Origin: a bacterium
Lineage (GTDB): Bacteria; UBP15; UBA6099; DSWB01
Assembly (NCBI GenBank): GCA_020061125.1
Contig: JAGUYV010000479.1
Coordinates: 1-11,437, forward strand
Direction of reading: 5' to 3'
DNA length: 11,437 nucleotides
Within the stretch, counting starts at the first letter, position 1. Each line of letters starts with the position of its first letter. Made by a program: the position numbers and the translations under genes. Below are positions 1,553 through 11,147 of the stretch, in pieces. A model generated the notes under the pieces. The model worked only from the letters and a program-made list of their open reading frames with translations. It was not told the origin of the DNA and searched no databases.

Positions 1553-3265
1553 ATGGCAGAAATCACCGGCGGGGAACTCCTGATGGAATGCCTGGCCGCC
1601 CAGGGCGTGGAAGTCATGTTCAGCATCCCGGACGGCACCTACAATATCATCTTCAAGTGGATCCACGACCACGGCAAGGAAAAAAACATGCGCATGGTGA
1701 CCATGCGGCACGAGGCCGCGGGCGCGCACATGGCGGACGGATACGCGCGCGTGTCCGGCAAGCCCGCGGTGGTCATGTCCTGCGCCGGCCCGGGCGCGGC
1801 CAACATGATCAGCGGCGTGATCACGGCCCATGTGGAGAACATCCCCATGATCGCCATCACCACATCGCGCCGCACGGATCTTGTCAACCCCAACCGCGGC
1901 GGCATGCAGGTCTTCGACCAGGTGCCCGCTTACCGCGCCGTGACCAAGAACAGCATCTATGTCACCCGCTGGGAGAACATCCCGGACGCCGTGGCCGACG
2001 CGTTCCGCAGGGCCATCTCCGGCGTGCCCGGCCCGGTGCACATTGACATCGCCGAAGATGTGGTCACCAAGATCAAGGGCGACATCAAGAACGCGCCGCC
2101 CCGGCCCAAAGTGGAACTCGTGATGCCCGCAGCCAACCCGGACGATGTGGCCAAAGCCGCTGAAATGCTGGTGAACGCCAAGACCCCGCTCCTGTACGCG
2201 GGCGCGGCCGTGGTGCGCGGCGGCGCGTGGGAAGAACTCGAAGCCCTGGCCGATTACCTGGGCATCCCGGTCACGGCCTCTCCGGGCGGGCGTGGCGCTC
2301 TGCCCGAAGATCATCCCCTGTGCATCCCCACCACCGCGGGCATGGCCCGCGCCGCGGCCGGCCAGTCCGATGTGGTTTTCGTGGTCGGCGGCCGCTTCGG
2401 CGAACTCGACTTCTACGGCAAGCCGCCCCTGTGGGGCACGCCCGAAAACCAGAAGATCATCCAGAACCACATTGACATCTCCTACATGGGCCTCAACCGC
2501 CCCGTGGATGTGCCGCTCATCGGACACTGCAAGGTCGTGCTCAAGCAGGTGCTCGAAGCCGCCAAGAAACTCACGGACAAGCGCGAACCCATCAAGAAGC
2601 TCAAGGAATACAAGGACCTGATCACCCTGGGCACAAACGCCATGTACGCCACCCACGCGCCCGAGCAGGATTCCCCCATCGTGCCCGGCAGCATGATGAA
2701 GAAGACCTCGGACTTCTTCGGCAAGGACGGCATCATGGTCATGGACGGCGGCAACACCTCCCTGGGCAACGCGCATATCAACTGGATCAAAGGCCCGCGC
2801 CAGATGCTCTGGACCAGCGACTTCGGCCACCTCGGAACCGGCACCCCCTACGCCATCGGCGCCAAGCTCGCCGCGCCGGACAAGCCCGTGTTCATGATCA
2901 CCGGCGACAGCGCGTTCTTCTTCAATGTTCAGGAAATGGAAACCGCGCTCCGCGAAAATCTGCCCATCATTTGCGTGATCAATGTGGACCACGCCTGGGG
3001 CATGGAAAAGAACTCGCAGAACCGCACCTTCGGCCACAACGATTACTTCGTGAATGTGGAGCACAAGCCCATCCGCCACGACAAGATCGCCGAGGCCATC
3101 GGCTGCTTCGGCGCTTATGTAACCAAGTTGAGCGAACTCGAACCCGCGCTCAAGGCCGCGGTGGACAGCGGCAAGCCCGCCATCATCCATGTGGAAGTGG
3201 ACCCCGTGTCCAACACCAAGCCCGCGGGCCTGGAAATGTGGGTGGGCGCCAAGTCCGCCTGCTGA
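1553..3265 (+). CDS. Thiamine-pyrophosphate-dependent enzyme, acetolactate synthase/pyruvate oxidase family
   Basis: A 570-residue cytoplasmic protein with the three-domain layout of this family: an N-terminal PYR domain (about 5-170), a central domain (about 195-330) and a C-terminal PP domain (about 375-550). Glu54 in MRHEAAGAHMADGYAR is the catalytic glutamate that activates the TPP aminopyrimidine, and SCAGPGAANMISG (76-88) is the usual following block. The diphosphate/metal motif begins GDSAFFFNVQEMETA at 451 and ends INVDHAWGM at 476-484. GDS replaces the more common GDG, and Val478-Asp479 stand where NN is typical. Family reactions include acetolactate synthesis, 2-oxoacid decarboxylation and acyl-CoA lyase or decarboxylase chemistry. 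GDS is also found in oxalyl-CoA decarboxylase and 2-hydroxyacyl-CoA lyase. No small regulatory subunit gene lies nearby, so biosynthetic acetolactate synthase is not supported by context. The gene has its own promoter and a strong ribosome binding site, suggesting good expression. Substrate unknown. Confidence 0.9.
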   Translation: MAEITGGELLMECLAAQGVEVMFSIPDGTYNIIFKWIHDHGKEKNMRMVTMRHEAAGAHMADGYARVSGKPAVVMSCAGPGAANMISGVITAHVENIPMIAITTSRRTDLVNPNRGGMQVFDQVPAYRAVTKNSIYVTRWENIPDAVADAFRRAISGVPGPVHIDIAEDVVTKIKGDIKNAPPRPKVELVMPAANPDDVAKAAEMLVNAKTPLLYAGAAVVRGGAWEELEALADYLGIPVTASPGGRGALPEDHPLCIPTTAGMARAAAGQSDVVFVVGGRFGELDFYGKPPLWGTPENQKIIQNHIDISYMGLNRPVDVPLIGHCKVVLKQVLEAAKKLTDKREPIKKLKEYKDLITLGTNAMYATHAPEQDSPIVPGSMMKKTSDFFGKDGIMVMDGGNTSLGNAHINWIKGPRQMLWTSDFGHLGTGTPYAIGAKLAAPDKPVFMITGDSAFFFNVQEMETALRENLPIICVINVDHAWGMEKNSQNRTFGHNDYFVNVEHKPIRHDKIAEAIGCFGAYVTKLSELEPALKAAVDSGKPAIIHVEVDPVSNTKPAGLEMWVGAKSAC

Positions 3266-3482: not shown

Positions 3483-4646
3483 TCAGTCGAGCGTCTCGCC
3501 CGAGGTGTCTTCCCACCAGATGTCGGAGTCGGGCCACTGCCTGGGCTTGGGGAGCTTTTCGAGCTTGCCGCGCTCCTCTTCGGTTTTCTTGAACTCGATG
3601 ACCTCGATGCTGACCGGCTCGCCCGTGCCGAAGATGCCCGCGGACACGCCCGGGGTGAGCTGCCGGGGCTTCATGATGGAGAGCAGTTCCTGGGGCGCCT
3701 GGCGGTGCACGATGTAGTCGCCCGGCTCGGGGCGCGTGTCCTCGGCGGGCTGGAAGATGGCGTATCCGTAGCCGGCCTGGGTGAGACGCGCGGTGCCCAC
3801 ATTCTGCCCGGAGCGGCGCACGGTGAAGAAATCGCCGCGCCAGTAGTCGCGGGGCACGAATTCGTTGTAGCTCACGAAACGGCCGTCGTCGAGGATGAGG
3901 CTCACGCGCGGGGCCGCGGCTTCCTGCACCGCGGGCGGAAGGCGCATGAGCTGGAAGGTGTCGCCCACCTGCAGGAAATAATCGCGGCTGATGCGCACGG
4001 CCTGCAGCACGGCGTACGACGGGGTTATGGCCGACACTCTGGCGGTGCCGAGCATGCGGTGCGCGCGCGTGATGTACACCAAGTCGCCCTCGGACAGCGC
4101 GAAGGTGTAATCCCCGAACGCCACAGCCTGCTTCCTGTCGTTGATCATGTCAATGGACCCGATGTCCGCGGTGGACGGCGGGCGGCCATCGTTGGCCGGC
4201 CACTGGTCCGTGATGGACCAGCGCACGGGATGCGGCCAGTATTGCGGGAACATCCACCGGTCCGACTCCGGGCTGGTGTCGCCGTAGCGCCAGCGCTGCT
4301 GGTAAGCCAGAAGGTCCGAGTAGGTCCACCACTCGCGGTACGGGTGCATGTCGAAATAGTCCCATCGGCCCGAGTACGGCCAGGTGGCGGGATAGGCCCA
4401 GCTTTTGATGTACGGCCAGCTCACCAGGTAGGGCCAGTCCGCGGGCGCGGCCACGGTGTACGGCATCATGCCGAGATACTGGGACCACGAGTTCTGGGTT
4501 GAAGTGAAAGTTTTATCGTATGGGGGATACTGCGGCGTGACCGGTTCGAGGAACAGGCGCGTCTGCCCCGGATTCGCCCATGCCGCGGCCGGAAGCAGCA
4601 GCAAACCAAGAAGAATCGCGCGCAGTGCGTTTTTCACAAGCTCCAT
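3483..4646 (-). CDS. Exported protein of unknown family with W-x-Y hexapeptide array and two GD-type beta modules
   Basis: I do not recognise this 387-residue protein. Residues 1-25 form a signal peptide (basic start, hydrophobic ILLGLLLLP, then AAAWA before N25), so the mature protein is probably periplasmic or surface exposed. Residues 71-154 form 14 consecutive six-residue units of type W-x-Y-x-x-x, rich in Trp, Tyr and Pro. After it come two related segments at about 187-235 and 271-316, each with a GD near the start, a short V/I-x-R strand, G-T-A-R and a closing GD-x-(5) pattern. These look like small beta-barrel modules, of the kind seen in FlgT-like C-terminal domains (weak resemblance). 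The tail (350-387) is highly charged and ends acidic. The ATG at 4644-4646 starts at the signal peptide. GTG two codons upstream is an alternative, and neither has a strong Shine-Dalgarno site. Translation reading further upstream would enter the intergenic tandem repeat. The gene appears monocistronic. Confidence 0.85.
   Translation of the reverse strand: MELVKNALRAILLGLLLLPAAAWANPGQTRLFLEPVTPQYPPYDKTFTSTQNSWSQYLGMMPYTVAAPADWPYLVSWPYIKSWAYPATWPYSGRWDYFDMHPYREWWTYSDLLAYQQRWRYGDTSPESDRWMFPQYWPHPVRWSITDQWPANDGRPPSTADIGSIDMINDRKQAVAFGDYTFALSEGDLVYITRAHRMLGTARVSAITPSYAVLQAVRISRDYFLQVGDTFQLMRLPPAVQEAAAPRVSLILDDGRFVSYNEFVPRDYWRGDFFTVRRSGQNVGTARLTQAGYGYAIFQPAEDTRPEPGDYIVHRQAPQELLSIMKPRQLTPGVSAGIFGTGEPVSIEVIEFKKTEEERGKLEKLPKPRQWPDSDIWWEDTSGETLD
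4185..4436 (-). repeat. 14-unit hexapeptide-coding repeat (W-x-Y-x-x-x)
   Basis: Within the exported protein, codon TGG (Trp) or a substitute recurs every 18 bases. Trp occupies positions 71, 77, 83, 89, 95, 107, 119, 131, 137, 143 and 149, and the three in-phase exceptions are His101, Leu113 and Ser125. The third residue of each unit is Tyr in nine consecutive registers except the later divergent units (Glu, Phe, His, Ile, Ala), and the second is Pro in seven of 14. The array is strictly in register with no insertions, while the DNA has diverged between units. This argues for conserved protein structure and against a recent microsatellite expansion. Confidence 0.85.
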
Positions 4647-4684
4647 TTTCACCCAAACCGCGCCGAAAGGCAAGTCCCGAGGAT

Positions 4685-4722
4685 CCGTCTTCCGTCTTCC
4701 GTCTTCCGTCTTCCGTCTTCCG
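4685..4722. repeat. 7-bp tandem repeat (CCGTCTT x5 plus partial)
   Basis: Five exact head-to-tail copies of CCGTCTT at 4685-4719 are followed by a partial CCG. The array lies 38 bp upstream of the WxY-protein start, in its presumptive leader. The reverse complement GGAAGACGGAAGACGG is a simple-sequence type seen in intergenic regions of some environmental bacteria. Copy number may vary between strains. No role is evident. Confidence 0.9.
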
Positions 4723-5083
4723 GCAAAAGGCAAAGGCTAAGGACAATGATAACCACAGAGGACACAGAGGGGCACAGGGGGCGCGGCTTGTTGCCGCGCC
4801 ATTAAAAGCGAGCAAGGGCGGCGCCGGACGCTGTAGCCGCAGAGCGCGATATCATAAAAATCATAAAGCTTATGGAGTGCAGTTCAGAATTCAAAGTTCT
4901 TCGCTCGGAATTCACCGCTTGGGATTCGCAGTTCATGGTTTGGATTCCGCTTTTGAGCGCGGCGTCAGCCGCGCCTTTGGTGTCCTTGGTGCTCTTCGTG
5001 GAAAAAGCCTTCGCCTTTTCCCTTGAATTCCCTGTGTCCTCTGCTCCTCTGTGTCCTCCGTGGTAATCTTTGCCTTTGCTCCA
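4723..5083. repeat. Gene-free repeat island bounded by inverted CCACAGAGGACACAGAGG-type repeats
   Basis: The left copy at 4752-4770 and the right copy at 5046-5064 (reverse complement) match at 18 of 19 bases. Both also carry GGCAAAG just outside the core (4729-4735 and 5068-5074), so the arms are longer than the core. A second core, CTGTGTCCTCTG, sits at 5032-5043. The roughly 250 bp between holds a perfect 8-bp hairpin (4780-4800), AT-rich stretches with several GAATTC-containing phrases (4887-4930), and a TTGGTGTCCTTGGTGCTCTTCGTGG-like tract near 4977-5001 of the same low-complexity style. Short open frames exist here but have no ribosome binding site or protein-like composition. The whole gap from 4647 to 5115 contains no gene that I can support. 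Confidence 0.75.
4780..4800. repeat. Perfect 8-bp stem-loop
   Basis: GGCGCGGC (4780-4787) and GCCGCGCC (4793-4800) enclose the 5-nt loop TTGTT. On the plus strand it is followed by ATTAAAAG, without a T tract on either strand, so a Rho-independent terminator is not supported. It may add structure to the leader of the downstream minus-strand gene if transcription reads through. Confidence 0.55.
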
Positions 5084-9167: not shown

Positions 9168-11147
9168 TTACTGCGTCCAGAAAAACCCTGTTGCGGGCAG
9201 GCCGGCGGTGTTCACGGCGTTGCCGCTGTAATCCGTGACATTGGACGGGGGCGTGTAGGCCGTGATGTTGTATTGCGTTCCTGAACTGATGGTCTTGAGG
9301 CCCAGGCCCGACAGGGTGGCGTTGGACTTGAGAACGAACGCCAGGGTGTCGTTGGGAACATTGGTTGACATCATCATAAACGAGCCGTAGCTCAACGCGT
9401 TGGTTGTGTTTATGGTGAGGTTTGTGCCTGTGGATACTTTCTGGATGGTGATGCTGAAGCCCGATGCGGTGAGGGTCGGCTGATCGTTCAGATTCACGGT
9501 GTGGTCCATGGTCTCGCTGAACACCACGCGGAACACGGGCTGATCGTTGGGCACATTATTCGTGCCGTTGGCCGGAAGGAATGCGGACACCGTGGGGGCG
9601 GTGGAATCGGTGGACACGGTAAACGAGCCGCCCGCGGGAATGTTGGTCGCGGTGTCGAGGGCGTTGCCCGCAGTGTCCTTAAGATTCGTGGGCACGGTCC
9701 TGGCGGTGATGTTGTAGGTGTCGCCCGGCTTGAGCGTGCGCAGGCCGCCGGCCTGCAGGTTGGCGTTGCTCTTGAGCGTGAAGCGCAGCGTGTCGTTTGT
9801 TGTGCTGGTCGTGACCCAGGAGAATGTGCCGTAGCTCAAGGCGTTGGTTGCGTCAATGGTGAGGCTCACGCCGCTGTTTGTGTTCTGGATGGTGATGCTG
9901 AACCCTGATGCGGTGAGGGTGGGCTGGTTGTTCAGGGACACGGAGATGTCCATGGCTTCGTTGAAAATCACATCGAAGGCTGCGCCGTCCGCGGGCACCG
10001 TGGTTGTGCCGCTGGCGGGGCTGAACGAAGACACCTGCGGCGCTGTGGTGTCCCCGGCCGTGATCTGCACGCCGTCGGACGACGCCACGCTGCTCATCAG
10101 GCCCGCGCCGTTTTCAGCTTTCACATTCACGAAATAGGTTGTTCCCACGGTGAGCGTCAGCCCGGTTTTTGTGAACGATGTGTTGGTCCCGTTGTCAGTC
10201 CAGTCCACGGTGTTGGTTGCGCCCGCGGTGGTGCCGATGGAATACCAGTAACCGGCGATGCCGGATTCGCTGTCCGTGGACGCGGTCCAGGAAGCGGACA
10301 GGGAGGTTGTGCCTGTCTGGGTGTCAATGTCCGTGCCGGTTGAGCCGTCCACCAGGCCCGAGGGCGTGGAAGGCGCTGTTTCGTCCGAAGCGCCGCTCAT
10401 GTCCTGCACCAGGGTGTTCAGCTCCGCGACATTGCCCTGCAGGGTGTCGAATTCGGACGCAAGCGTTGTTTCGCTGGTGTGGACATTGGTGAGGGAAACA
10501 TTGCCCGCGGTCACTTCAGCCTGCAGGTTGTCGTCGAACCAGTCAATGAAATCGGATACATCGGTGATGCTGAAATCCGGGAGCAGCTTGATTTCCGCTC
10601 CGGTTTTGCCGGTGTTGTATGTATCCACGATTTTTGCAAGACCGGCCACGGCGAAAGTGGTTTCCGTGGTCATGTCTGAAGCCGTGACCGTGGTACCGTA
10701 CTGTGACGAGGTGACCGAAACCACGCCATACACGATATAGGTGGTTGTGTTGATGGTGCGTGTGGCTTTGAGAATGTAATGGACCCCCGCGGTGACGCCG
10801 GAGATCGTGAAATTGCCGGATGTGTCGGTGGTGGCGGTTGTGAAGGCTGTTGCTGACAGAGTGCCGTCCGATCCCATGTTGTAGAGGCCCACGGTTGCGC
10901 CGGAAAGCGCCTGTGTGCTGGTGAGCGCGGCCTGGCGGCCTGCCGCGGGCCTGCCGAGTGTGAGTCCGCCGTCAATGAGCACGCGGCCCGTTATGGTGGC
11001 GGTTGTGGAGCCGCCCGTGTCCGAGGAACACCCGGGCGCCCACGGGTTTTTGATGCACGCGTTGGTTGTGGATCCCCCGCCGCCGCACCCTGCTGCAAGA
11101 GCAAGCCCCAGCAGTAACAGCAATCCGATCACATATCGCTTACGCAT
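9168..11147 (-). CDS. Lipoprotein with FN3-like and two Big_5-like Ig domains
   Basis: A 659-residue envelope lipoprotein. Residues 1-21 are a lipoprotein signal (basic MRKR, hydrophobic core, LALAAGC with Cys21 as the lipidated residue), followed by a GGGGS-type linker. A carboxypeptidase-regulatory-like beta domain (about 50-130; ITGRVLIDGG, TDTSGNFTISGVTAG) comes next, then a segment with an acidic helical stretch (about 165-255). An FN3-like domain (about 258-365; DSESGIAGYWYSIGT) follows, then two Big_5/SbsA-like Ig modules at 368-498 and 515-647, which share QPTLTASGFSITIQ and TNALSYGSF-like blocks. Such modules mediate binding or spacing at the cell surface. No catalytic domain is seen. 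Composition is rich in Thr and Ser. The ATG has GGGAG 7 nt upstream. Adhesion or polysaccharide contact is possible but is inference. Confidence 0.88.
   Translation of the reverse strand: MRKRYVIGLLLLLGLALAAGCGGGGSTTNACIKNPWAPGCSSDTGGSTTATITGRVLIDGGLTLGRPAAGRQAALTSTQALSGATVGLYNMGSDGTLSATAFTTATTDTSGNFTISGVTAGVHYILKATRTINTTTYIVYGVVSVTSSQYGTTVTASDMTTETTFAVAGLAKIVDTYNTGKTGAEIKLLPDFSITDVSDFIDWFDDNLQAEVTAGNVSLTNVHTSETTLASEFDTLQGNVAELNTLVQDMSGASDETAPSTPSGLVDGSTGTDIDTQTGTTSLSASWTASTDSESGIAGYWYSIGTTAGATNTVDWTDNGTNTSFTKTGLTLTVGTTYFVNVKAENGAGLMSSVASSDGVQITAGDTTAPQVSSFSPASGTTTVPADGAAFDVIFNEAMDISVSLNNQPTLTASGFSITIQNTNSGVSLTIDATNALSYGTFSWVTTSTTNDTLRFTLKSNANLQAGGLRTLKPGDTYNITARTVPTNLKDTAGNALDTATNIPAGGSFTVSTDSTAPTVSAFLPANGTNNVPNDQPVFRVVFSETMDHTVNLNDQPTLTASGFSITIQKVSTGTNLTINTTNALSYGSFMMMSTNVPNDTLAFVLKSNATLSGLGLKTISSGTQYNITAYTPPSNVTDYSGNAVNTAGLPATGFFWTQ

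Follow-up and report, generated by a model that had tools for sequence, protein, structure and literature searches.

The window analysed here, 11,437 nucleotides of DNA from a bacterium of a thinly sampled phylum, carries on its minus strand a gene for a protein of 387 amino acids that combines a predicted export signal, a strictly spaced array of Trp- and Tyr-bearing hexads and two small C-terminal domains. The mature protein has a calculated mass of ~42 kDa and a pI of 5.2 and contains no Cys. Its features are as follows.

3483..4646, minus strand: the array gene, 387 amino acids, with codon usage resembling that of its neighbours
4572..4646, minus strand: putative signal peptide, about residues 1 to 25, MELVKNALRAILLGLLLLPAAAWAN, read from the sequence
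4437..4571, minus strand: Pro/Tyr-rich lead-in (YPPY, MPY), residues 26 to 70, off the six-residue lattice, read from the sequence
4185..4436, minus strand: hexad array, residues 71 to 154, 14 units, placed by residue count
3927..4169, minus strand: predicted first FlgT_C-like domain, about residues 160 to 240, from a profile of proteins of the phylum (match 162 to 230)
3672..3926, minus strand: predicted second FlgT_C-like domain, about residues 241 to 325, from the same profile (match 241 to 291)
3486..3542, minus strand: C-terminal tail, RQWPDSDIWWEDTSGETLD, read from the sequence

Residues 1 to 25 have, by eye, the n-, h- and c-regions and the A-x-A of a Sec signal, with A-W-A preceding the likely cleavage site; this segment, whose sequence is also given as MELVKNALRAILLGLLLLPAAAWA, leads directly into the Pro/Tyr-rich stretch. 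AlphaFold places a helix at residues 2 to 24. The signal peptide supports the view, already put forward in a preliminary description of this DNA, that the protein is exported.

The 14 hexads read WPYLVS, WPYIKS, WAYPAT, WPYSGR, WDYFDM, HPYREW, WTYSDL, LAYQQR, WRYGDT, SPESDR, WMFPQY, WPHPVR, WSITDQ and WPANDG. Trp stands on the lattice in 11 of them (residues 71, 77, 83, 89, 95, 107, 119, 131, 137, 143 and 149), the remaining places of the column being taken by His101, Leu113 and Ser125, and a single Trp of the array (Trp106) lies off it. Tyr holds the third place throughout units 1 to 9 (residues 73, 79, 85, 91, 97, 103, 109, 115 and 121), while Pro holds the second in 7/14 units (1, 2, 4, 6, 10, 12 and 14). 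W-P-Y is found in units 1, 2 and 4, H-P-Y in unit 6 and W-P-H in unit 12, so that an aromatic-Pro-aromatic triplet, with His counted, is present in only 5/14 units. Counted from two residues ahead of the Trp, the column consensus is D/x-R/S/T-W-P-Y-x, and the 84 residues together contain 12 Trp, 10 Tyr and 10 Pro. The C-terminal tail adds one extra W-P-x-x-x-x-W step (Trp371 and Trp377).

With composition kept, at least 11 of 12 Trp would share one of six phases with a probability of ~1.4e-9, and at least 9 of 10 Tyr with a probability of ~3e-7, both figures applying to a stretch picked post hoc. When residues 27 to 165 were shuffled 20,000 times and periods of 3 to 12 were scanned, no shuffle reached the observed periodicity. 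The lattice is far from chance; the post hoc choice makes the P values a matter of orientation, yet the margin is wide. Tandem Repeats Finder (TRF) reported no tandem DNA repeat across the array, and the 18-base units share a mean pairwise identity of 47%, or, with the Trp and Tyr codons left out, 39% against 32% for shuffled codons. The preliminary description thus proved accurate on recount in its Trp positions and their three interruptions, in the placing of Tyr and the frequency of Pro, and in its statement that the register does not slip over 84 residues despite diverged DNA. The repeat is real and unusual, and its assignment to any class is tentative.

A period-six Trp column seen in raw DNA may come from a gene for a collagen-like or left-handed beta-helix (LbH) protein read in the wrong frame, and the frame should therefore be tested first. 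Viral contigs yielded at least 120 matching stretches for a DNA pattern that encodes three W-x-Y hexads, and 25 of the 25 viral contigs matching a W-P-Y pattern read collagen-like G-P-T/I in the next frame, the collagen-like frame being much the longer open frame in nearly all of them. LpxA-type genes of the phylum likewise show four consecutive period-six TGG codons out of frame, arising from codons such as GTG-GGN, and in the window the frame adjoining the Trp frame reads L-A/G-L-x-x-x. All of this favours reading the Trp array as an artefact, a collagen-like or LbH hexapeptide gene translated in the wrong frame, an explanation to which we nevertheless give almost no credence. At the array the +1 frame contains stops and no Gly-X-Y, and the +2 frame stays open over just 120 codons, whereas the open Trp frame spans 417 codons in the window and runs continuously through the signal peptide and the C-terminal domains. 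In the array, GC content at the three codon positions is 0.51/0.55/0.90, with third-position values of 0.76 to 0.88 in the neighbouring genes, and a codon-usage likelihood ranks the Trp frame best of six with and without its amino-acid part. Among period-six TGG runs in seven genomes of the phylum, only in the array gene is the Trp frame also the longest open frame. The array gene lacks the marks of a collagen-like Gly-X-Y gene read out of frame, and codon usage together with frame length refutes the artefact. As a separate observation, viral contigs (L062, L197 and L201 among them) carry collagen-like Gly-X-Y arrays that give perfect W-x-Y hexads one base off.

Searches with the array protein against Pfam, NCBIfam, PHROGs and PADLOC gave zero matches, and Pfam at E values up to 10 offered no family for the array or the C-terminal half. 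By sequence, the PDB returned chance matches only for the whole protein and none for the array. The Pfam LbH Hexapep profile was unmatched, the hexads being W-x-Y and not [LIV]-G/small-x4. The earlier proposal that the array is not of LbH type is supported by the lack of any match in these libraries. Shifted pieces of the array align by identity rather than by unit and are therefore unusable as a repeat profile. The literature searched, with the terms tried, yielded no paper on a W-x-Y hexapeptide repeat.

Homologues were likewise absent from the six other genomes of the phylum examined, from 98 genomes searched with the whole protein, from 386 genomes searched with the array alone and from 395 further genomes heavily weighted to a few genera. 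Viral contigs contained no relative, nor did plasmids and phages, where the matches had E values of only ~1 to 10 and were rejected, one of them lying beneath a collagen-like gene. Four weak matches of the array among the 386 genomes (E 0.001 to 0.007) were set aside as two short repeats (ASWPFI and WAQMETWPYRLS) and chance similarities, and a match in another genome (G673, E 9e-5) proved to be part of a phosphoglycerate-dehydrogenase-like gene read out of frame. A contig scan by peptide words, which detects close relatives only, produced a single locus, which lies antisense to an Acidobacteria TPR-like gene and was rejected as a chance match. As far as sequence comparison reaches, the array protein is a singleton among the six phylum genomes and ~780 sampled others, the source genome itself being its family's only representative among those sampled. 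One isolated repeat gives little basis for speaking of a new fold.

More can be said of the C-terminal half. A profile of proteins from the phylum matched residues 162 to 230 at 12.8 bits and residues 241 to 291 at 31.0 bits, scores somewhat inflated because the profile sequences had been found by weak similarity to the array protein. With the sequence fetched through it left out, the first domain still scored 12.3 bits (best of 2000 shuffles, 8.1), and the two copies match each other in a two-sequence BLASTP comparison (E 2e-5). The domain, of ~70 to 80 residues with the pattern V-x-L-I-L-D-D-G ... G-D ... R-x-G-x-x-V-G, is shared by a set of exported proteins of the phylum, and the profile match places the array protein among its carriers; in these other proteins it stands near the N terminus. 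The array protein itself has no match to FlgT_C (PF16538) in Pfam, and two of its phylum relatives match that family weakly, below the cut-off (E 0.08 and 0.16).

Several of the domain relatives run on, by eye, into long, beta-rich C termini resembling outer-membrane barrels, and the same genome encodes an LpxA-like protein, which makes a lipopolysaccharide outer membrane, and hence a diderm host, probable. Together these two observations make the cell envelope the likely location of the array protein. Four exported proteins with the FlgT_C-like domain were read individually (L008, from contig C2 of the same genome at 12041 to 15181, and L003, L005 and L009); in each, a charged or Ala/Pro-rich linker follows and then a beta-rich, barrel-like C-terminal half, and the parts scanned had no Pfam family above cut-off.

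Comparison with known systems brings out partial likenesses. LbH proteins such as LpxA share a six-residue period over many units but build it on an aliphatic-Gly/small pattern with no Trp column, in contrast to W-x-Y, and the LpxA gene of the same genome has its TGG lattice only out of frame. FlgT_C and its look-alikes resemble the C-terminal half by way of the phylum relatives, but nothing flagellar was seen in the window, and we know of no such hexad array in FlgT. Regularly spaced Trp residues also mark thrombospondin type 1 repeats and the Trp-Arg ladders of cytokine receptors, and the Trp of the array often follows Arg (RW). Thrombospondin type 1 repeats have Trp every 3 residues in disulphide-bonded domains; the array protein, by contrast, has neither Cys nor a Pfam match. 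Mussel adhesive proteins likewise consist of short, exported tandem units (hexa- and decapeptides) rich in Pro and Tyr, but theirs are Lys-rich, near-identical copies with no Trp column. If the array folds regularly, it would be a short-unit repeat defined by Trp and described by none of the family libraries searched, and it might serve as a scaffold for aromatic ladders with glycan-binding or charge-carrying properties.

Run without an alignment, AlphaFold gave a pLDDT of 35.5 for the whole protein and 32.8 for residues 25 to 160 alone. Over the array the mean was ~25 to 40, and the models contain no strands there, an observation of little weight for models built in this way. The preliminary suggestion of an undescribed aromatic repeat fold is compatible with the absence of any family match, but the solenoid or ladder that it envisaged does not emerge from models of this confidence, and the glycan or cell-wall binding that it proposed is conjectural.

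Our preferred reading, tentative at a probability of about 0.3, is that the array forms a multivalent aromatic strip of Trp-Pro-Tyr turns that grips an envelope polymer or partner. The protein would be a lineage-specific, exported envelope protein of a diderm bacterium, made up of signal peptide, array and two small beta domains, in which the array is extended rather than a globular core. Each x-W-P-Y-x unit would make a local aromatic-Pro-aromatic turn, six-residue steps would bring Trp and Tyr to the same side of the strip, and the strip could then bind an envelope polymer, either glycan or peptidoglycan, or else a partner protein, by way of many weak stacking contacts. The C-terminal domains would anchor or place the protein. 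Pro and Trp would be ill-suited to a sheet or an LbH prism, and the W-x-Y spacing, the six-residue steps and the frequent Pro fit an extended strip better than either. In NMR studies of peptides, Ser-aromatic-Pro-aromatic sequences tend to adopt type VI turns in which Pro is cis and the rings stack. Against the strip stand the lack of homologues in the searched sets, the low confidence of both AlphaFold models and the small share of aromatic-Pro-aromatic units, and none of the genes nearby suggests a function linked to glycans or the cell wall.

Other readings put the same residues to different use. It is possible, if doubtful, that the array is a compact solenoid or new beta structure in which Trp and Tyr fill the interior or form a ladder, at six residues per strand-turn step. 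Its strict register over 14 units, without slippage despite diverged DNA, would suit such a structure, as would the W-x-Y spacing, which turns the two rings to the same side of an extended strand, but Pro in half of the units is unfavourable inside sheets, Trp gives way to H, L and S in three of them, and the AlphaFold models lack strands in the array, although without an alignment this says little. We consider it unlikely that the W-P-Y hexads are a new repeat architecture, a regular aromatic ladder in the envelope with Trp and Tyr stacked on a polyproline-like or beta backbone and a polymer bound along its length. Just as improbable, in our estimate, is a young or neutrally drifting low-complexity segment that arose by 18-base duplication and is itself functionless. 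The protein's isolation in the phylum as sampled and the similarity that the units retain once their Trp and Tyr codons are left out are what one would expect of such a segment; yet the DNA units have diverged strongly while Tyr was kept in nine consecutive units, the array has zero indels, and Trp is costly to make. Least probable of these is a structural, adhesive or cross-linking region like mussel foot repeats, in which Tyr and Trp would stick or be oxidatively cross-linked: export and the aromatic- and Pro-rich composition agree with it, but the array is single and short, contains few Lys and has no oxidase or adhesion gene adjoining.

A sigma-70 promoter scan gave no match. The neighbourhood is unconserved in the phylum: in the five further genomes read, other genes flank the dGTPase gene. 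Immediately 5' of the array gene, in the gap that separates it from a Gfo/Idh/MocA-type gene, the heptamer TCCGTCT is repeated 5.6 times with zero mismatches (4684 to 4722). The intergenic stretch 4750 to 5070 is rich, towards either end, in pieces resembling ACAGAGGACACAGAGG and TGTGTCCTCTG and is possibly an inverted or mobile element. Elsewhere in the window, 9168 to 11147 (minus strand) encodes a probable lipoprotein of 659 amino acids (LALAAGC signal) with Big_5 in two stretches and fn3-like matches, and 1553 to 3265 (plus strand) encodes a thiamine-diphosphate enzyme of the acetolactate-synthase superfamily that falls below every NCBIfam cut-off shown.
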